Assembly: GCF_965638725.1 (NCBI RefSeq)
Contig: NC_134960.1
Span: 5,396,501-5,460,500 of the forward strand
DNA: 64,000 nucleotides
Source: Aptenodytes patagonicus
Taxonomy: Eukaryota > Chordata > Aves > Sphenisciformes > Spheniscidae
Direction of reading: 5' to 3'
A model generated the notes under the pieces. That model did not search any database. It was not told the origin of the DNA and saw only the letters and a program-made list of their open reading frames with translations. Shown here piece by piece: positions 11,696-64,000 of the stretch (position 1 is its first letter; each line of letters begins with the position of its first letter). Position numbers and translations under genes: made by a program.

Positions 11696-12817
11696 ATGGA
11701 TAAAGCCATTCAGCATCCCAGTGAGATTCTGTCTAATCAAACCATCTCAAACATTAGCTATTCTCAGTTTTTAAACTTTGACACATGCCAACCTTCCTTC
11801 CTTGCAGAATTCTTGCTTATTACAGCCTACACATTAGTTACAATAGTGGGCATTTTTGGAAATCTTTGCCTGATTATTATAATAAAGAGACGGAAAGAAG
11901 CTCAAAATGTTACCAACATTTTGATTGCCAACCTCTCTTTATCAGATGTCTTGATCTGTATCATGTGTATTCCTGTCACAGTTGCATATACCTTAATGGA
12001 CTACTGGATATTTGGGGAAGCTATGTGTAAAATCAGTTCTTTCATACAAAGTGTATCTGTCACAGTCTCCATTTTCTCACTTGTACTCATTGCTATCGAG
12101 AGATACCAGTTAATTGTAAACCCACGTGGCTGGAAGCCTAGTATTTCACATGCTTACTGGGGAATTCTTTTCATCTGGGGGCTTTCCCTCATAATAGCCA
12201 TTCCTTTTTTAATATTTCACCAATTAACTGATGAACCCTTCAAACATCTATCTTTCCATAGTGATTTCTACAAGAACAAGGTTGCTTGCATCGAAGCATG
12301 GCCATCTGTTACGGAACGACTGATTTTTACCACTAGTCTGCTGGTTTTCCAGTACTGCTTCCCACTGGGGTTTATTTTTATCTGCTATCTCAGGATATTT
12401 GTGTGTCTTCGAAGGAGACATGGTAAAATAGACAGGATGAGAGAGAATGAGAGCAGACTGAGTGAAAACAAAAGGATTAATATTATGTTGATATCAATTG
12501 TTGTGACTTTTGCAGCTTGCTGGTTGCCTCTCAATATATTCAATGTTGTTTTTGACTGGAACTATGAGGCACTAATGAGCTGTAATCATAATCTAGCATT
12601 TACAATATGCCACCTTGTGGCCATGATCTCAACATGTATCAATCCCATCTTTTACGGATTTCTCAACAAGAACTTTCAGAAGGATTTGATAGTATTAGTT
12701 CACCACTGCAGATGCTCAGCATCACAAGAGGAATATGAAAATATTGCCCTTTCAAATCTGCAAACTCACCCATCCAAGGGATCTCTGAAATTAAATAATA
12801 CCCCTGTGGATATCTAA
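11696..12817 (+). CDS. NPY6R: Neuropeptide Y receptor type 6, intact
   Basis: This is a single-exon class A GPCR of 373 residues, the usual length for Y6. It is a plasma-membrane receptor for NPY, PYY and pancreatic polypeptide-type peptides; family members couple to Gi/o. Two N-glycosylation sites (NQT 14-16, NIS 19-21) precede TM1 (about 38-63). TM2 has the LANLSLSD motif with Asp84. Cys111 and Cys198 should form the extracellular disulfide. TM3 ends in ERY (135-137), TM6 holds CWLP (275-278) and TM7 holds NPIFY (316-320). A cysteine pair at 338/340 could be palmitoylated. The stretch IERYQLIVNPRGWKPS and the C-terminal EEYENIALSNL match Y6 better than Y1, Y4 or Y5. The frame has no breaks, unlike the human gene, which is a pseudogene. 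The start codon is the first in frame after the upstream acceptor. Confidence 0.95.
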   Translation: MDKAIQHPSEILSNQTISNISYSQFLNFDTCQPSFLAEFLLITAYTLVTIVGIFGNLCLIIIIKRRKEAQNVTNILIANLSLSDVLICIMCIPVTVAYTLMDYWIFGEAMCKISSFIQSVSVTVSIFSLVLIAIERYQLIVNPRGWKPSISHAYWGILFIWGLSLIIAIPFLIFHQLTDEPFKHLSFHSDFYKNKVACIEAWPSVTERLIFTTSLLVFQYCFPLGFIFICYLRIFVCLRRRHGKIDRMRENESRLSENKRINIMLISIVVTFAACWLPLNIFNVVFDWNYEALMSCNHNLAFTICHLVAMISTCINPIFYGFLNKNFQKDLIVLVHHCRCSASQEEYENIALSNLQTHPSKGSLKLNNTPVDI

Positions 12818-22264: not shown

Positions 22265-22392
22265 TAAAAAAAGAAAAAAAAAAAAAGAAAAAAAAAGGAA
22301 AAAAAAAAGAAAAAAAGAAAAAAGAAAAAAGAAAAAGAAAAAAGGAAAAAAGAAAAAAGAAAAAAAGAAAAAAAAAGAAAAGAAGGAAAAAA
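22265..22392 (+). repeat. Long purine tract, (A3-9 G)n
   Basis: This is about 128 bases made only of A and G, with A runs of 3 to 12 broken by single or double G. It gives artificial Lys/Arg-rich or Phe-rich open frames on the two strands. It is not at the end of any LINE that I can see, so it is best taken as a simple repeat grown by slippage. Confidence 0.95.
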
Positions 22393-24813: not shown

Positions 24814-25748
24814 ATAGAATCATAGAATCATTAAGGTTGGAAAAGACCTCTAAGATCGTCGAGTCCAACCGCCAACCCAACACCACCACCCACTAAACCA
24901 TGTCCCTAAGCGCCTCATCTACGCGTCTTTTAAATACCTCCAGGGATGGGGACTCCACCACTTCCCTGGGCAGCCTGTTCCAATGTTTCACCACTCTTTC
25001 AGTAAAGACATCTTTCCTCACGTCCAATCTAAACCTCCCCTGGCGCAACTTGAGGCCGTTTCCTCTCGTCCTATCGCTTGTTACTTGGGAGAAGAGACCG
25101 ACCCCCACCTCGCTACAACCTCCTTTCAGGGAGTTGTAGAGAGCGATGAGGTCTCCCCTCAGCCTCCTTTTCTCCAGGCTGAACAACCCCAGTTCCCTCA
25201 GCCGCTCCTCATCAGACTTGTTCTCCAGACCCCTCACCAGCCTCATTGCCCTTCTCTGGACACGCTCCAGCACCTCGACGTCCTTCTTGTAGTGAGGGGC
25301 CCAAAACTGAACACAGTGTTCGAGGTGCGGCCTCACCAGGGCCGAGTACAGGGGCACGATCACTTCCCTACTCCTGCTGGCCACACTATTGCTGATACAG
25401 GCCAGGATGCCATTGGCCTTCTTGGCCGCCTGGGCACACTGCCGGCTCATGTTCAGCCGGCTGTCGACCAGCACCCCCAGGTCCTTTTCCGCCGGGCAGC
25501 TTTCCAGCCACTCTTCCCCAAGCCTGTAGCGCTGCATGGGGTTGTTGTGGCCCAAGTGCAGGACCCGGCACTTGGCTTTGTTGAACCTCATACAGTTGGC
25601 CTGGGCCCATCGATCCAGCCTGTCCAGGTCCCTCTGCAGAGCCTTCCTACCCTCGAGCAGATCAACACTCCCGCCCAACTTGGTGTCGTCTGCAAACTGA
25701 CTGAGGGTGCACTCGATCCCCTCGTCCAGATCATTGATAAAAATAACA
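24814..25748 (-). mobile_element. CR1 LINE, 5'-truncated, with open RT C-terminus
   Basis: This CR1 retrotransposon of about 935 bp is in reverse orientation. Its 3' end lies at the left edge (ATAGAATCATAGAATCATTA) and it is cut off within ORF2 at the right edge, near 25748. CR1 elements copy themselves by target-primed reverse transcription and are usually 5'-truncated, as here. The protein-coding part is uninterrupted and the 3' UTR is well kept, so this is the youngest CR1 copy in the window. Confidence 0.97.
24893..25747 (-). CDS. CR1 ORF2 fragment: reverse transcriptase catalytic end and C-terminal domain
   Basis: The open frame runs from the truncation point to a stop at 24893, about 284 codons. 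It begins [17 protein letters not shown] and includes FADDTKLGG, the catalytic aspartate pair of the reverse transcriptase palm. The CR1 thumb and C-terminal region follow, with recognisable pieces [27 protein letters not shown] and [20 protein letters not shown]. The endonuclease and the first half of the RT are missing, so the fragment is not autonomous and has no start codon of its own. It is dead retrotransposon coding sequence rather than a host gene. Absence of stops or frameshifts over 850 bp indicates recent insertion. Confidence 0.93.
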
Positions 25749-27870
25749 TCTCAGCAGCCATCCTCCTGCAAAAATGAACATGTAGCAGTCTTAGTCAAAA
25801 AGCCTTGAAAGGCTTCAGTATTCACAGGTGGTGACAGAGATACAAAGGATATCTCCTTTGCATGGCGACTAACCGTCTTAAATCCCCACAGCTGCAGCAA
25901 AGACAGAAATCTGGCTTGCACAGCACTCACTTCAGCGCACTGCGTACACCGTGAATGAACCACTTGGCGTGTAGGATCAAAGGTAGGAAATGTGTCATTA
26001 TCTGGGGCTGTTACGGAGAGAGGAAGGTTTTACCCAGGCTGAGTTTCCAAAATACATGGAGGAAATGGATTACTCCTGTCTCAAAGCTCATCACTCATTT
26101 CTAGCTACACCAGGACAAAGAGCCCTCCAGTGCTCAGCTTGTTCTACCTGGATTTTCAGTTTCCCTCTCCCTCCTTCTCTCTACCACTCCTTTACTTACT
26201 GGGAAAGAACAAAGATGATGTTTCCCACAGTATTTAGCAAGAACACCTACATGATGCAACTGCTTTCCAACTCCTTGGGCACCATTAAGCAAGCCATGGG
26301 CTTTTTACCAGCATAATCCCTGAGTGCTGGACTACCAAACACCAGTCTCATCTTTTTCCTTCCTGGAGATTTTGGCAGTATTATGATTTCCACAGCACAC
26401 CTGAGACAATCCAGAAATAAGGATTTGTCAAACATACAAAAGGAAGTAGTCCCAGGAACAGCAAAAGCCCAGCCGATGCACTGACCATGACCGCATCCTC
26501 CCGCAGGGGACGTAACACACTTCAGACAGTTAAACACATGCAGGGCTTGTGTTCTTATCATTCTCCTGGAGCCAAATTCAAGGCTGCTTTTCCTTGTCTG
26601 CTGTTTACTCCACACAAGTGCCAAATTACATTAACATGAAGGCTCCCTGAAATTCCATCCCACTAACATTTCAAAGTATGCTATTGATTGGCGTCCGTCT
26701 TGCGTCGGGACTTGTCAGCAAGCTGCTGTGAAGGACACGCGAATGAAGCGGGGCACTCTTCAGAGATGTTCGGCATCAGAAGGGGAAGGTTCAGAGCGCT
26801 CAGCAGCTAACTGCGGTTCCCAAAGGGATAGGTACACTTTGGTAACTGAGATGATGCCAGTTTCCCAAGCCAGATGGCTGATTGGTCTGATATTATACAG
26901 CGCATGGCCAGACTAAAGCGGTTTGTCATGCTTCATTACACAGTCTACTTCCACGTCTAGTTGAACATCTTCAGACCCTCTGGAGAAAAAAAGTAAAAAA
27001 ACAAAAATACATTACTCCCAAAACTGTCAGAAGATACAGGTACAGCAACACCCTTGTTAAAAACTGTCTTGCACCTTCTTAGGGAAATCAGTGTACTTCC
27101 AGTGCGATAGACAACTTTTCCCAGGAAGCTATCTTCAAATACTTCCAAAATGTGAAGTTGTTGGCTGTCACAAAGAAAAGACATTTGCAGGACAACTGCC
27201 TCATTTTAAGTGTAATGAAAAGTCAGGACAAACTCAGCTCTAAATCCCTGCCCAGGTCTACTTACTCTGCTTTGATTCCCACGGAGCAGCAGCACATGCT
27301 TGTTCGGGCAGCCTGGGGGGACCCGCAATCCCTTTCTGCACATTACTGGGTGCACCTGCAACGCTTCCTGCGTGAGCACTGCGTCAACTCTTCTTCCCAA
27401 GCAACCCAGACCTCTCAGTTTGCCGATTCACCACCCCTTACACTGACACTATTATAAAATAGAGTGAAAGCATTCAGACACTACGTTATCAATTAATTTA
27501 TACAGCTGCATTTAGACAAAACCCTAAGAGAATCCAAACCTGCTGAGCTTCGTGCATGAACTGCCTGAGCCGTCTGTCGAGTCGCACCGTCATGCTTGCC
27601 ATTCTGCTGGTAAATCTGCAATTTCCACATATTTTTCTCCTGGTGGCCTCCATGTAAATATGCAGAGCCTGAATTTATGAAACAATCAGTTTTTTTCTTT
27701 GCTCAGTTTTGAAAAGAAGGAAGAAAAATAACCAAAATTCTTTCCCCATCTCAGTCTTTTATTGTATTGACACTTTGTCTTTTTATCTCTGGAGATCAGG
27801 GATAAAGTTCCAACTTGGTCATAAGTCACAGGGCTTGACGGCATTGCTTCAGTCCCTAATAATTATTTGT
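25749..27870. other. Intergenic, nothing recognised
   Basis: Short open frames on both strands (about 26.0-26.6 kb) overlap each other and lack family or splice support. Confidence 0.4.
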
Positions 27871-53262: not shown

Positions 53263-54593
53263 GTAAGTGCAAACACTGTTGAGTCAAGTATATTCCGCCT
53301 CCTAAAGTCTCTGTCTCCATCCTGCCCTGTTTATTTTTTCCCCCCACATTAGGAAAAAGTGGAAAGCCTCCAGTATTTTGCTGACCATTGGTTCCTCAGC
53401 CAGTGAAGTCTGTAGTAGCCATTCAGTCCACCAGAGTTACACCACTTTATAGTTACACACATTTTATAATTCAGCCATTATCTATTGGCCCTCAAAGAGT
53501 AGGTGACACATTTTTAAAGTTATTGTTTATAGCATTTTAGAAATATTTTGCGAGGAACAGCTCAAGCACATCTTCAGCAAGTGACTAAGAGGCAAGGGTC
53601 ATCGTGAATATCAAGATCTGGACCCTAAGCTCTGGAAAAGGGCTTTCTGGCTTGGAACATTTCCTAGCCAGAATTGCTAAGAGAACTGATGGAGCAGGTG
53701 ACAGGGCTGGAAATGCTCGAGGGGCTGCCACGCAGCTTCGCCATTTGTCAGCCTACTTCAAAGATTCACTTCAGAACAGATAGTTGATTTAAAGCACATA
53801 CTTGGTCAAGAGCTGGGGAACTCAGACTGTCTAGAGACAGACTCACATCTTAACTCAGGCTGGAGGGAAAGAGCTGGTAACTTGAGTTATTTCAGGGAAA
53901 AGACAGATTATAAAAAAGACCAGTGCCACAGCAAAACAAACCCAAGCACTTCAGTTGCACATTTATACGCAAGACTCATGGTTCAAAAGCTAAATGAGAT
54001 GGATATGAGTGCACATCAATGCTCCACCATGGAACAAGGACATATCTTGCACTGCAAGTATTTGATCATCTTAAAACTGCCTTTCTTGCTTAATCAGAGA
54101 CCTTATTGTAACCTCTGCGTCAGCTGAGCTTTAAAGGAGGATGTCAGGACAGAGTACCAAAGTTCCTGCTCATTTCTCTACATTCAGCCTCATGGTGGTT
54201 ACCACATACAGCACACAAGCCAGGAAGAGCTAGACCTGGGATCACCTAGACCAGGTAGGGATCTCTGTAGAAGGGGACTGCTACTGGCAAGCAACACTGA
54301 TCTTTACATAGAGACTACAAGATGTGGGCAATTAATTGGCTTATAAGACCAGCAACGCTTACCGGTTATCAACTCCTCTTTCCACTAACTTGGTGTTCTC
54401 AGTCCAGGGAGGCCTTTCCTCTTGGAGCGCTTGAATGGAGACTCTCCACAGGGTATTTATTAGGCTGGCACATGAACAACAGATAAAACACTCTGACATC
54501 TTCTTCTGTTTCATAGTAAAGTGCCAGCAACACAGCTGGGTTTCTGCATATGAGGAATTCAAGCTATAAAAATCACTTTTCTTTGCTATATAG

Positions 54594-54656
54594 ATGCAGA
54601 GTCCCTCGGCGAGCCTGACCGGGTCTGCCTATGGAAGCACACCTGTGTTTACAAAG
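54594..54656 (+). CDS. MYOT: MYOT/palladin-family exon: lead-in to the Ig domain
   Basis: This 63-nt exon of 21 codons encodes MQSPSASLTGSAYGSTPVFT plus K. It lies between an acceptor (TTTGCTATATAG) and a donor (AAAG followed by GTAAAG), and it is in phase 0 at both ends. The end STPVFTK is the usual opening strand of palladin-family Ig domains (PPVFTK in palladin) and runs straight on into the next exon. The first codon is ATG, so translation may start here. An upstream coding exon is also possible because an acceptor precedes it. Confidence 0.6.
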
Positions 54657-55209
54657 GTAAAGAGCACAGGTTGTCTGAACGACATAGCTTGTTCTGCAAC
54701 TACTAGCATTAGATTTCGAGTTTTCTTGCTCCATCAGAAGGTATTTTGAGGCTGGAACATTGGTTCATTTACAATTCAAAAAAGCCAGCATGCTTCATTA
54801 GTGATGCTATCAAATTAACATCTTAATTGGTAAACGATCCAGACAGACAGAACCACTTACATGAATTCATCTCATTCATTTCCTACAAAGGAGGCTGAAG
54901 TGGAAACCTCTCATAGTAACCTCCCTTATTATGTTGTATCCACCGGAATAGATGTTTTTCCTGCATTTGTATCTTTATTTAAATGCATAAGCAAGCTGAA
55001 GCCTTTTAATGAGCACTGGTCTACAGGTGAAAAAACCTCCACTCACAACCCACTGCAAATGCATTTAGAATTAAATCAACTATTGTAAGTAAAATAAAAA
55101 TATGGGCATGAGATCATCTTCTTCACCGAAGGGTGTATCATTCCGTAATAATCGCTTCAACGGGGAAAAACTTATGTCAGCCATTTAACACCAATTTTTC
55201 CTCCTCCAG

Positions 55210-55351
55210 GGTCTACAAAACATAAAAGCTACGAAGGGTCAATTAGTGGTATTTGAATGTCGCATTCGCGCTACACCCACCTTACAGGTTCACTGGTACA
55301 GAGAATATGATCAGATAATAGATTCTGCCGATTTCCGAATACTACGAAAAA
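55210..55351 (+). CDS. MYOT: MYOT/palladin-family exon: first half of an I-set Ig domain
   Basis: 142 nt, phase 0 in and phase 1 out. The acceptor is TTTTTCCTCCTCCAG and the donor is AAAAA followed by GTAGGT. It encodes GLQNIKATKGQLVVFECRIR, then HWYREYDQIIDSADFRILRK. The first Ig cysteine (VFEC, Cys38 counted from the ATG at 54594) and the core tryptophan (HWYRE, Trp50) are present. The wording matches the second Ig domain of palladin (ELQN, QVVVLECRVR, DSPDFRILQKK). Proteins of this family bind alpha-actinin and actin in Z-discs or stress fibres. The intron before it is 553 bases and the one after is 630 bases; neither shows other features. Confidence 0.75.
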
Positions 55352-55981
55352 GTAGGTATTACTACGTCTGTTTGATGTACAGTAATTTTATTGGGACGAT
55401 GACAAGACAGGAACAGAACTGCTATAAAAATTAGGAGCTCCTACATGTTCACAGAGGCAGAGTTAAGTTTACAAGTATGAAATGACCTGAAGTCACAGGC
55501 TGCTGTGCAGAGCCTGCGGTTCCGCTGGCGACGCGTGAGCGGATCAGGCACAACGGGAGGAGATTGCCATGCTGTTAGTTGTTAATGCAAGTACTGCTGA
55601 GCCTGGAGGCATCGTCACTGTATATTACAACTACTGATGAACTCGGGGAAAAAAATTTGCAATATAAGCACATTTTAAACAATTTCTCCTACTCCCAGGC
55701 ATGAGGTCATAGCCCCAGTGGGCCAAATTCACAGCAACTAACTCCAAAGTCAGCGGAGCTCTTTCTAGATCACCTCAGTGAAGAGGTGTTTGTACCATCA
55801 GGTTCCAGCCAAACCTGAGCTTCCCCTACCCGCATGGTATTTCTCTTGATGGACAGGAAGGGAGATGGTCCCTTTTGTAACTGGGGTGACAGCTGAGGTG
55901 GGAAAGGAGGAGAGGGCTGAAGGTCTTTCTTCCATTCTGCCATTATAACCATTTAATTTTTTTCTTTCTTATTTTGAGCAG

Positions 55982-56005
55982 AGGCTTGTTCGTCAGCTGT
56001 TCCCG
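55982..56005 (+). CDS. MYOT: MYOT/palladin-family 24-nt microexon inside the Ig domain
   Basis: The 24 bases lie between a strong acceptor (TTTCTTATTTTGAGCAG) and a strong donor (CCCG followed by GTAAGT), phase 1 at both ends. Joined to its neighbours it completes K-K-A-C-S-S-A-V-P-E-E. In human palladin the same place reads KKPRSTAEPEE, so the microexon fills exactly the expected loop. Because it is a multiple of three it could be skipped without a frameshift. The intron after it is 553 bases. Confidence 0.7.
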
Positions 56006-56558
56006 GTAAGTACACTGCGCATTTTTTGTTAGACATCTTACCGGTTAATTACCCCAAGCTTAGTTTTTCCCACCTCATCCAAGATAAAACAATAATGTTC
56101 AAAGGGGAGCCAGAAGATAGCACTCAGTGTCAGGCTAAGAGCTTTCAAGTTCTTGGTTTTGACACAAGCGCCTGAAAAGCCCCAATTTATTTCACAACAC
56201 AATGAAAAAGGTATCATCCCTTTTACATTCAGCCAAGGAAGAGCACCCTATGTGTTAAGGGAAAGCATATCAACCATTCTGACCCGTGATCTTTCCTGGG
56301 TTTTAAACTTGTGCAAGAGAAGACAGAATTTAGCAAAAAATTTGTGCCTTGTTTCTTTAAAGCCACAGGAAGAAAGATTCTTCCTTCACCTTTGCTCCTT
56401 CTGAACCCCTTGACTTCCTATGCCCTTTACATCACTTTTTTGCACTTTATTGCTGGCAAGCCCCATCACTAAGTAGCAGTCCTTCTGCAAGGACCAACTC
56501 CTACAAGTTAACATTTGGTTTTCATGGTACAACAGCATGCCCGAATTTGTCATTTCAG

Positions 56559-56678
56559 AGGAAGTCTGCACCCTGGTTATTACAGAAGCTTTTCCAGAAG
56601 ACTCTGGAATATTTAAATGTGTTGCTGAAAATGAATTTGGATCTGCAGCATCCAGTGCACGTCTCTCTGTTTCTCCAG
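56559..56678 (+). CDS. MYOT: MYOT/palladin-family exon: second half of the I-set Ig domain
   Basis: 120 nt, phase 1 at both ends. The acceptor is AATTTGTCATTTCAG and the donor is CCAG followed by GTAAGC. It encodes EEVCTLVITEAFPEDSGIFK, then CVAENEFGSAASSARLSVSP. The motif DSGIFKC carries the second domain cysteine (Cys97), which pairs with Cys38. Palladin Ig2 reads EEICTLVIAETFPEDAGIFT at the same place, so family membership is secure. The domain is complete across exons 54594 to 56678. Confidence 0.8.
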
Positions 56679-57275
56679 GTAAGCACATGGGTCTCTGAGC
56701 TGAGCAACTAAGCACAAGACAATTTGCTGCTGCTCAGCATCAGGCAGCATCACAGATATTTGCCAAGAGAAGCCAGACCCAAACACTTTTGCAGGCTCAA
56801 GAGAAGAGAAATGGCCCAAAAATGCAGTCTGCTTGGGTACTTCTCAAAGCTGGATGCAAGTTGTTCCGCATTTCTGCTTTTGGCCCCTCTTCCTCCTGGG
56901 TCAAGGACGACAAGGTGAAGACGATGTTTTCTCTCACAGAGGAGTCTCATCCCTGAGCTTCACCCCTTCAGGGATCCCAGCTTAGCCCAACACATTGGCT
57001 GAATCTATACCTTGTTTATTGTAACACATGACTTGCCTGGCTTGTGCTGAAAGCCATCTCCAAACAGAGCAGCACCTTGCATGTAACCCAAAGCTCACCA
57101 GCCCCGGTGAGAAGTCAGGTTTGGCTCATGCAGCTGTGCAGGTTTTGGTCTACGCAGACCCCAGGCAGGTTGAACTCTCACTCCCCTGCACAGTCTCCCT
57201 TCCTGTTACCGCAGCGTGCGGTACTGGTGACCCACCACTGCTTTCTACCTGACTTGTGGACAATTCTACTTCCAG

Positions 57276-57534
57276 GAGCAAAAGAGCTGGAAAGCTTTGC
57301 GGGTGCTGCCCACAGGCCAGCTGTGCAAGTCACCATGAAGAAACCCACCTTCCCTAGGAACAGCCAAACAGGAGCCAAGGACCGAGATGCGGCTGGCCTG
57401 CCATCCTACAGCACAGAGACCCCAGCGCTGGGCAGTCGAGCAGAAGCCACAAACTTCGGCCAGATGAACTCCAAGAGCGAAGCTGAAGATTTTCATGGAG
57501 CTTATAAGAATTCGCCTCAGGCTTCACCTCTGCG
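57276..57534 (+). CDS. MYOT: MYOT/palladin-family exon: linker after the Ig domain
   Basis: 259 nt, entering in phase 1 and leaving in phase 2. The acceptor is GGACAATTCTACTTCCAG and the donor is TGCG followed by GTAAGA. It encodes a polar, probably disordered linker beginning GAKELESFAGAAHRPAVQVT and ending FHGAYKNSPQASPLR. This resembles the Ser/Pro-rich stretches between Ig domains of palladin and myopalladin. The later part typical of myotilin (an FNYxRPKxF start, then two Ig domains) is not found in the window, so those exons must lie beyond its right end or the product is short. The symbol MYOT rests on the neighbourhood with NPY6R known from human 5q31; PALLD or MYPN cannot be formally excluded. 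Confidence 0.65.
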
Positions 57535-60221: not shown

Positions 60222-61245
60222 GAGAACCCGATCAGACGCAACGTGTCACCATTCACAGAACGTAAACTGAAGCAGTACAGAAAAGCTGGTCTCCAACACC
60301 CCGCAGCGCTGGTCAGAGTACTATTAAGTTACCCTACCACAGGCTATGAGATTTTTTTTTTTCCCCCCCTACCTTCTGGATCTCACGTTTTTCCGTTCCT
60401 TCTCTTTCACACAAGTCGTCCTAGTTGCGGCCAGCCTTTCAAGTGCCTAAAGCTGTCCTTAAATTGATGCCTTGCAGCCAACTTCAGTTCTGAAACAAGC
60501 GTGCTGCACCCTCACTGCAGCCGATGGGAAGGCAGGGAGCCTGCCCGAGCACAGAGCCTGACCCTTAACACGCTCACAGCTTCCTACAGGGCAAACGACC
60601 TTTCTACAGTTACCTTTTTTAAGTACTCAACTCTCTCTGTGGAAACTACAGATTATTTTTTTTTTTTTTTTAAACTTAAAAAGCAAATCACCTCTCCAAC
60701 AACCAGGGGCACACTTCCTCCCTTAACCACTTTCATCGCGAGAAATTTAAATAAATTAGCTCTCAATTAACACCTGCTATTGTAGATTTAGTTCACAAAC
60801 GGTGGGCTGATGTTTAAATACAAACACTAAATGTGGATTAACTCTCGAAGATCGCTGTGCTGAAAGGCTCACCGGTACAGTGAAGGGAGAGAAGAGGCAA
60901 CTGAAAGATCAGGCGCAGCCCGAGCTGCGGTACTTATCGGGCTGGGGGTTTTTTTTCAACAATGGCGTGTACGTTAGGCAAGAGTTGCCAAGGTATCATT
61001 AAGATACTTAAGACACTAAAACGTTAATTTAAGATGTAATTAAGCATTGAAGCCTTTGATTAAAGGGATACAAATCACCTAATCTGCCAGCAGGATCTGT
61101 CGGTGTTCTGGTGAAAACACCACAGTTGCATCTTTTAATCCAAGTAAATACCTGTAATAACACACACGAACAGCAAAACATCAAATCATATTTTACCACC
61201 AAGCATATTTTATTTGTGTTATCCAGTTTATGACTCTTCAGACAC
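60222..61245. other. No gene supported; leads into the CpG island
   Basis: This holds an AATAAA at 60750-60755, T runs near 60353 and 60656, and no supported exon. Confidence 0.4.
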
Positions 61246-62262
61246 GTCCCCGAGCAATGCCGCTGCTCCCCATGAAGCTCCGCACTAGCGCGAAGGTGCG
61301 GGTAGCGCCGGGGGACGAGGGCACGGCGGCCGCGGCCGCGGGCGGAGGGCTCGGCCGGCTGCGCTGCTGGGTGCTTATTTGAACAACGTCGACGTCTGGC
61401 TTTCAAGTATCCGCTGCCTTTAAGTGCACAGCCTTAAAAGCAGTAACAGAGTGTTACCACGACGGAGGCAATTAGCTACAGCCAATTAGTAAATGAATCA
61501 AAAAAGGAATTTCGTTGAGATAACGAAGTGGGATGTGGGGACGTTTAAGCATGTTGCAGCAGTCCTTCCTCGCTGCTCCCTGGCGGCTGTTGTGGGCAAA
61601 AACCCCCTGCTTTTCTGTTCAACAGCTGTCGACTCCTTCAATTCTTCCCCTGCTCCCGCCGAACGCAGGCACGTACCCGGGAGCGGGGGAGGCGAGGGAC
61701 AGCGCCGAGCCTCAGCCGCTTGAAGCTCGGGGTGGGGAGAGCCGGGGCCGGCAGCTCCCTGCCCGCCGCTACCCTCCGCAGCCTGGCCGGAGGCGGGCAG
61801 CGCTCTGCCCGGGGCCGGGGCCGGGGCCGGGGCCGGCTGGAGCAGCGGCTTCGGGAAACCGCGGAGCCCCGGCCGCCCGCAGGCAGCAGCGGCCGGGCCC
61901 GGCTGCCGGCGGGGTCAGCTCCTCCCGAGGGCCGGCCCGGCGGCGGGGCCGGGCGGCGGCGCAGGCAGGCTTCAGCGCCGCCCGCGGGGGTGATTCGCTG
62001 CCCGCGGGCACCTGCCCAAAACCCGGGCTCCGGGCCTTAAATGAAGCGTCCCCGCGGGGCCGGGGCTGGTGGGGACTCTTATTCTGACAGCGGTGCGGGC
62101 AGGAGGACAGGCAGGTCCCGCCGTGTCATCTGCTGGCAGCACGTTAGAGCCTCCGGTCTTATAACGCTACGCGGAGGGGCTACTATGACAGTCCGGGTCA
62201 GTGAATGACGGTCCCTTCCCAAAATACCGGTTAAAGCCCAGGTGACAACTTCTAGGCTGTAG
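61246..62262. promoter_or_regulatory. CpG island, probable promoter of an unassigned transcript
   Basis: Very high GC and CpG density in two blocks (about 61246-61370 and 61640-62060) with a less GC-rich gap between. It includes overlapping GCGGCCGC sites near 61327 and a (GGGGCC)4 run. A consensus donor (CTGTAG followed by GTAAGG) at 62262/62263 would suit a first non-coding exon on the plus strand. The direction is not certain. It might be the promoter for a short downstream myotilin form, the next gene (PKD2L2 follows MYOT in human) or a divergent RNA. Long open frames inside it are a by-product of GC richness. Confidence 0.75.
61811..61834 (+). repeat. (GGGGCC)4 hexanucleotide repeat
   Basis: Four perfect GGGGCC units stand in a row in the CpG island. 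Four GGGG runs spaced by CC can form a G-quadruplex on the plus strand. The same unit is the one expanded in human C9orf72, but the locus is unrelated. Confidence 0.95.
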
Positions 62263-64000
62263 GTAAGGTGCCGTGTTTGGTGTTTTTTTTTTTTTCCACG
62301 TCACTTTTTACTTCGAAGCCGGTTAGGGAGCTGGCGTGAGAAACCGCAGCGTGCTGGGTAACGCTGAGGTGGAAGCGCGCCTTGCAGGTGCGGTGGTGTC
62401 AAAGGCAACGTGGGAGGCATCGAAGGAAACAAAAATCGTTATTTTAAAAAGCAAAGTGTCTCTATTATTACTTACTCTTTTCGTCTTGTAAGGTCAAAAG
62501 TCTTTTCGGATTTATTTTATTTTTTTCACCCAAATCGAGGTGGAACGATTTGAGGAAAACAGAACTTATCCATTGCTGTGACAAGTGAACCTGTGCATAC
62601 TTAAGAAGTGCAGTATTCTAGAAAACAAAGTAAATCTATTTCTCTACATAGCCTGTAGGTAAAATGAATGAATCTGTACACAGGCAATGATAGCAAAATG
62701 GTATAAAAACAAGTTTCAACGAGTTTTCTCCACCAGTAAATGAGAACATAGTGTGGACGTGCTCCAAAAATTTGAGCCAGCTTCAAATTCCAAGAGCATG
62801 CAAGGGGAAGGTTAGGGAATTTTTTACTAGAAAACCTCTGTTTACGTACAGTTAATTTACAACTGATATTGATAATTACCTTTAGGAAATGAAAGCTTTG
62901 AATCTTTAAAACAACAGCGATGTCTTCAGTTGATCTTCCCCCCACGGGAATTTATGACCTCGTGGAGCCCTTCTTCGGGCTCTCCGATGAGAGGAATACA
63001 ATATACTGCGTATATATAGCAGCGAAACAGCTGATCTCGGTGCGGCAAGATTACAATTTTTTCCAGCACATGTAACTGTGTGGATTTATATTCTCATTTT
63101 TTATTAGTAGCTTTATGTTTATTTTGGGGGGTTATTTATTTATCCTGGAGCTGAAGTTGTTTGTCAGTTTTAACAAACTTGCTCAGTTTGCTCTAATTAA
63201 ACTTTCCTCTTTTGTAAGTTGATGGAAAGCCCACGTTTAGACATCAAGGACCTGCAAAATAAATGCAGGGCCTTTGAGCAGCTCGGCTTGCCCTACTTTA
63301 TCCTGCAGCTATGTCATTCGGCCAATTGTTAGCCCTAACAGCAAATCTCGGGAAATCACTTCAAACGGAGCAGCACAGTCCTTGGCATTCCAGTCCTAAA
63401 TCTCAATTGGATATAAAGAGCTCTGAATTCAAAAAACATTAGAGAAGAAATCAGGATACTTGGTTTCAAAGGTTTAGTTTTAGGCTTAAAGAAAGTGGAA
63501 CCTGTCTCATGCTTCCCTATGGTGTAAGGAATTTCTCGGCACAAATAGCCAATTCTCCGAGAAATAGTACATTTAGTATTTTGACTGGACCCAGAGGTCT
63601 TTCGTTAAGATGATATGTGGCAAACTACTTTGCTTAGCAGTAGTATCGACAGTATAGGCTTAAGGCAGGTGGTGGGTTGTCTCAATATTGTCTCAATAGC
63701 CGTGGTGAGCACTGCACCTGAGTCAGAGTGCGTGACTTGTTATTGGAATCCGAAGTGTTCATACAGTTCCAGAATAGTTCTCCTCAATCCTAAATCTCTT
63801 TATTTTAAGCTCAAGCTTTAACTGTCAGTTGCCTGAACTTCATACTCTTTGGATTGCTAATGACTGCTCACGACACAGCATTTTTGTGATTCAAATGGTG
63901 ATGTACGATTTATTTTATCTGTATTGTCTTCCTTAAGGGAAAATCCACACCAAGAAAGCCTCTATTCTGCAAGGCAAGGGTTCCATTCTATCCAGGAGCC
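62263..64000. other. Right flank, no gene supported; one 51-codon open frame
   Basis: Downstream of the CpG island the sequence becomes AT-rich. The only object of note is a plus-strand frame from ATG at 62920 to TAA at 63075. It encodes MSSVDLPPTGIYDLVEPFFG and continues for 31 more residues with natural-looking composition. It lacks splice sites and I know no such family. Within it GAGCCC and GGGCTC form a tight hairpin. Coding or not cannot be decided from this sequence alone. No myotilin-type exon is present up to 64000. Confidence 0.4.

Follow-up and report, generated by a model that had tools for sequence, protein, structure and literature searches.

Myotilin is a human muscle-disease gene product and is described as the small, two-Ig member of the palladin family. 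In a comparison of 85 vertebrate sequences, birds included, it is described as a two-Ig protein, and the C-terminal motif of the human protein is given as ESEEL; in the accessible text of that paper, an insertion of 11 residues is the only difference mentioned for birds and no third Ig appears (PMC5479843), which counts against the reading proposed here. Searches of the open-licence literature for three-Ig or chicken myotilins brought up no report of a three-Ig myotilin. According to the accessible text of a second paper, the long form of palladin has five Ig domains and its N-terminal Ig1-Ig2 region binds CARP/ANKRD1 and FHOD1, while the corresponding region of myopalladin binds CARP (PMC10069870). 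Binding of CARP by myopalladin is also described in the accessible part of a further source (PMC8547954).

The DNA analysed here, referred to as the window, is a stretch of 64,000 nucleotides from the penguin Aptenodytes patagonicus, which a protein search of its own assembly (1.352 Gb, 618 contigs) placed at C12:5396501-5460500. The first-pass annotation had described, near the right end of the window, five phase-consistent exons for an I-set Ig domain. These exons are as follows:

54594..54656, + strand: extra exon 1 of MYOT, 63 nt, phase 0 at both ends, MQSPSASLTGSAYGSTPVFTK; the extra Ig begins here
55210..55351, + strand: extra exon 2 of MYOT, 142 nt; first half of the Ig domain
55982..56005, + strand: extra exon 3 of MYOT, a 24-nt microexon, KACSSAVP, phase 1-1
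56559..56678, + strand: extra exon 4 of MYOT, 120 nt; second half of the Ig domain
57276..57534, + strand: extra exon 5 of MYOT, 259 nt, phase 1 in and 2 out; low-complexity linker

Canonical AG/GT sites are present at all boundaries, with incoming phases of 0, 0, 1, 1 and 1 and an outgoing phase of 2. Joined, the exons amount to 608 nt and are translated into 202 residues without a stop. An I-set domain was detected in this translation at residues 17-114 (Pfam, E=3.1e-19), so that the domain is encoded by exons 1-4 and a linker by exon 5; the description of the five exons was thus borne out. We propose that they are the 5′ coding part of MYOT: a third I-set domain at the N-terminus, which shares its descent with Ig2 of palladin (PALLD) and myopalladin (MYPN), and after it a linker that runs in frame into canonical myotilin (probability about 0.87). 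Scans of the window for Rfam families, tRNAs and tandem repeats yielded nothing of relevance. An A-rich tandem repeat of the AAAAAAG type lies at 22266-22392, and at 24893-25750 on the minus strand there is an open frame of 285 residues that gave no Pfam match; it may be the C-terminal end of a reverse transcriptase from a CR1-type LINE, which it resembles.

The relation of the extra Ig to the other domains of the family was studied within the same genome. Outside the window, among the 150 of 159 candidates that were scored, the best matches in this protein search lay on contigs C4 and C5 and in a dense array on C6, which looks titin-like from the many adjoining matches. Flanking DNA was examined over 60 kb to the right and 50 kb to the left of the window, 50 kb on C5 and 40 kb on C4, together with a further 10 kb of C4 and 6 kb of C12. 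Separate genes, which we take to be PALLD and MYPN by their similarity to human sequences, were found on C4 and C5 respectively, each with its own Ig2; for MYPN, pieces of Ig1 to Ig5 were found. The extra Ig is 60% identical to the penguin's own MYPN Ig2 and 59% identical to its own PALLD Ig2, against 24-35% to other Ig domains of the family; for two titin-like exons of the same genome the values are 47% and 38%. For comparison, Ig2 of MYPN and Ig2 of PALLD are 70% identical to each other, canonical MYOT Ig1 is 51% and 53% identical to Ig4 of the paralogues, and canonical Ig2 is 47% and 58% identical to Ig5. In a tree of 13 rows, the extra Ig grouped with both Ig2 domains with a support of 90/95, just under the tool's own mark, and PALLD Ig2 was nearest to it (84/77).

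The exon structure agrees with the sequence comparison. The Ig2 exons measure 63, 142, 24 and 120 nt in MYOT, 72, 142, 24 and 117 nt in MYPN and 75, 142, 24 and 120 nt in PALLD, with identical phases. The 24-nt microexon encodes KACSSAVP in MYOT, KPRSMAEP in MYPN and KPRSATEP in PALLD and is of phase 1-1 in each. The acceptor before exon 1 lies at the same residue in all three genes (A|QSP, V|QSP and M|QSP, phase 0), and the two introns that come next are of phase 2 and 2 in MYOT and MYPN alike. Since these sizes and phases recur in two paralogues, the five-exon structure is more than chance. The domain is therefore of the palladin Ig2 type by its sequence, its microexon insert and its intron phases, and the earlier assignment to this type holds. 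A PDB sequence search with the extra Ig gave titin chains as the best matches, with the palladin chains 2lqr and 2dm2 far lower; this counts against our reading. The extra Ig shares the I-set fold with Ig domains of the titin I-band and Z-disc; the latter, however, are without the 8-residue insert that the microexon encodes. A recent copying of Ig2 exons from PALLD or MYPN into the MYOT locus would fit the equal exon sizes, but an identity of 60% and 59%, lower than the 70% between MYPN and PALLD Ig2, and a divergence of the same order as that of the canonical domains make such an event hardly credible.

It had been suggested that an FNYxRPKxF exon and two further Ig domains should be sought to the right. 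No FNY exon was found by a search of the 64-kb window alone, because the diagnostic residues sit 152 nt past its end. In the right flank, a whole myotilin follows on the + strand, from MFNYERPKHFIQ at C12:5460652 to an ESDEL end at 5472862; it contains FNYERPKHF and both Ig domains, and its frame and phase agree with those of exon 5. The exon that carries MFNYERPKHF begins within the window:

63938..64000 in the window, continuing to window-equivalent 64537, + strand: exon 6 of MYOT, 600 nt, of which the first 63 nt are inside the window; phase-2 acceptor

The start of exon 6 at 63938 is an addition to the five exons of the first-pass annotation. From this acceptor, the frame is open into MFNYERPKHF at window-equivalent 64152, and the phase-2 donor of exon 5 at 57534 fits the phase-2 acceptor. 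The resulting 14-exon model has a coding length of 2328 nt with a single, terminal stop and encodes 775 residues with three I-set stretches (Pfam, E=7.9e-62). MFNY is residue 275, and the canonical part has 501 residues. Exon 6 carries both the MFNYERPKHF segment and the Ser-rich region of myotilin, and the frame closes with ESDEL as the C-terminal PDZ motif. The N-terminal portion of the canonical part is presumed to be myotilin by comparison with the human sequence, relative to which the penguin protein is a net 12 residues longer in the stretch from MFNY to QPDY, a difference in keeping with a bird, as are the gene order and the size of the genome. Against the PDB, the canonical part matched the human myotilin chains 2kkq (E=1.2e-45) and 2kdg (E=1.9e-41), the best single-domain chains, with only one multi-domain titin construct above 2kkq; the last two Ig domains are therefore of the human myotilin Ig1 and Ig2 type. 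The presence of three Ig domains instead of only two is a property of the gene model, and it makes the locus a variant of myotilin, not a non-member.

The intron between exons 5 and 6 is 6.4 kb long and contains a CpG island, which counts against the continuity of the gene. Such a gap with an island would suit a separate fourth gene of the palladin family ending before MYOT; exon 5, however, ends in a good phase-2 donor, exon 6 begins with a phase-2 acceptor and an open frame, and at the matching position MYPN also has a phase-2 intron. A fourth gene is thus very improbable.

The exons had been said to lie downstream of NPY6R, and a receptor frame was indeed found upstream of them on the same strand:

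11696..12817, + strand: intact open frame of a neuropeptide Y receptor, 373 aa, Y1 subfamily; 7tm_1, E=7.5e-58

The best PDB chains for this frame were NPY1R and then NPY4R, and it is by its position that it is called NPY6R. About 2.2 kb to the left of the window, a frame with two RRM stretches lies on the minus strand; we take it to be HNRNPA0 from an identity of 92.5% over 187 residues to the human sequence. To the right of MYOT, on the + strand, there is a polycystin-channel exon, classed by its PKD_channel domain, at which level PKD2L2 itself is not resolved by sequence. The order at the window locus is therefore HNRNPA0 - NPY6R - MYOT - PKD2L2, with the last member taken at the level of PKD_channel. 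The human order, in the accessible text of the source, is HNRPA0, NPY6R, MYOT and PKD2L2; human NPY6R is among the genes of 5q31.2 and its reference sequence is non-coding (PMC2642994).

The identification of the locus as MYOT, and not PALLD or MYPN, was accordingly upheld: the latter two genes lie elsewhere with their own Ig2, and the window gene has HNRNPA0 and a polycystin channel as neighbours of the 5q31 type. The gene is like myotilin in these neighbours and the receptor, in its MFNYERPKHF start, in its 501-residue canonical part with two C-terminal Ig domains and in its ESDEL end, and it differs in having a third I-set within an in-frame N-terminal extension of at least 274 residues. 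To palladin it is alike in the identity of the Ig2 domain, in the exon sizes of 142, 24 and 120 nt and in the phases, and to myopalladin in the identity of Ig2 and in the intron phases, which agree throughout Ig2 and in the next two introns; both paralogues differ in contig, PALLD having its own Ig2 and a five-Ig long form and MYPN its Ig1-Ig5 pieces. No Ig1 was found in 104.6 kb upstream of the five exons, and the gene is not one of the five-Ig palladins or myopalladins.

The DNA upstream of exon 1 was searched over 104.6 kb. The Ig1 exons of MYPN and PALLD, the latter without its first half among the queries, gave no significant match there (best E 0.32), while in a control these queries recovered the paralogue at E of about 6e-26. 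The linkers of MYPN and PALLD, including the short linker, also gave no significant match over the 104.6 kb, nor did an N-terminal motif of MYPN/PALLD, which had no working positive control. Only Ig2 therefore seems to have been kept in MYOT. Because exon 1 begins where an exon of MYPN and PALLD begins, the transcript probably starts further upstream, and the common acceptor implies one or more additional 5′ exons, whether coding or non-coding. Immediately before the ATG of exon 1 stands an in-frame TAG that spans the putative acceptor. This too counts against our reading; it means that translation begins at that ATG or enters through the splice. E-boxes (CAGCTG/CATATG) are seen at 54533 and 54547 and a TATAAA at 54565, just 5′ of exon 1. 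These may be coincidental, and by homology exon 1 looks probably internal despite them.

The extra Ig exons could also be relics, intact but no longer joined to the MYOT mRNA, so that birds make a two-Ig protein only. The published two-Ig description (accessible text of PMC5479843) and the stop before the first ATG would agree with this. Codon changes on the MYOT branch and a simulation of neutral decay bear on the same question. At codon positions 1+2, 24 changes were counted in 84 codons of the extra Ig, 25 in 68 of canonical Ig1 and 14 in 43 of canonical Ig2, the canonical sets being parts of the domains only; the extra Ig is thus no higher than the canonical domains. All three MYOT Ig domains change faster than their MYPN and PALLD counterparts, and the speed of the extra Ig is counted against the main reading. 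In the codon comparison, partial canonical Ig2 was 63% identical to PALLD against 60% for the extra Ig, for which reason the extra Ig is described as about as conserved and not as more conserved.

Neutral decay was simulated with a simple model for the frame of the 822 extra coding nt and 22 splice-site bases (2000 runs per rate). With substitutions only, 38%, 8.8%, 0.25% (5/2000) and 0.05% of the runs stayed intact at 0.02, 0.05, 0.1 and 0.2 changes per site; with indels, the values were 12%, 0.55%, 0% and 0%. Neutral decay would therefore break the frame soon, and intact exons are more than chance. A very recent loss of function may still be compatible with them. We consider relic exons unlikely in view of this survival at 0.05 and 0.1 changes per site, of the branch changes, and of an intact, correctly bounded frame that is continued in matching phase by the open frame of exon 6.

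Exons that are translated as part of MYOT, as we prefer, could still be accompanied by a shorter product. The CpG-rich island in intron 5 is a possible promoter of such a short form:

61100..62499, no strand: CpG-rich island within intron 5, about 1.4-2.8 kb upstream of exon 6; GC 0.51-0.80 and CpG o/e 0.82-1.07 in 400-nt windows

With nested promoters, a long three-Ig form would start upstream and a short two-Ig form near the island, with exon 6 as its first coding exon. The palladin forms of 200, 140 and 90 kDa are the model for such an arrangement. Four alternative promoters are described for palladin in the accessible text of PMC10069870. The island, at about 61.1-62.5 kb, precedes exon 6, and donor-like sites are found at it on the + strand (62263, 62336 and 62488). 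On the other hand, exon 6 has two in-frame ATGs upstream of MFNY, so that under the first-ATG rule a short form spliced to 63938 would begin ahead of MFNY, and a donor-like site on the minus strand (62475) means that the island could serve another transcript. Nested promoters are therefore a tentative proposal, which extends the main reading and does not oppose it.

Taken at its full length, the long MYOT would consist of the N-terminal Ig and about 160 linker residues that run into MFNYERPKHF...ESDEL. The common ancestor of MYOT, PALLD and MYPN would have had an Ig2 with the exon structure described above; the penguin lineage would have retained this domain in MYOT, with no Ig1 seen in the DNA searched, and mammalian MYOT has probably lost the domain or its use. 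The loss of the extra Ig in mammals is probable by parsimony, from the shared exon structure and the published two-Ig description. We infer that a long three-Ig mRNA is made, and its product would presumably be a Z-disc scaffold that carries an additional module for protein binding. Our least certain suggestion is that this module may bind the partners of palladin and myopalladin Ig1-Ig2 (CARP/ANKRD1, and FHOD1 for palladin), which is a guess by analogy.

These results suggest that ancestral myotilin was probably more palladin-like. A wider proposal, to which we give even odds, is that the ancestral vertebrate myotilin was palladin-like with an N-terminal Ig2, that sauropsids and perhaps most non-mammalian vertebrates still make it, as a long three-Ig form beside a short form from nested promoters, and that mammalian myotilin is secondarily truncated and has lost an N-terminal binding module common to palladin and myopalladin. 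Knowledge of human myotilin is not overturned by this, and automatic annotation of bird genes may already carry the long form without comment. The same microexon and phases fix how MYOT, PALLD and MYPN relate. If bird MYOT encodes a third Ig of the palladin type, the form with two Ig domains is the derived one. Any comparison of myotilin function in chicken and mammal models must then take an additional N-terminal module into account, and it becomes possible to test directly in what order domains were lost within the palladin family.
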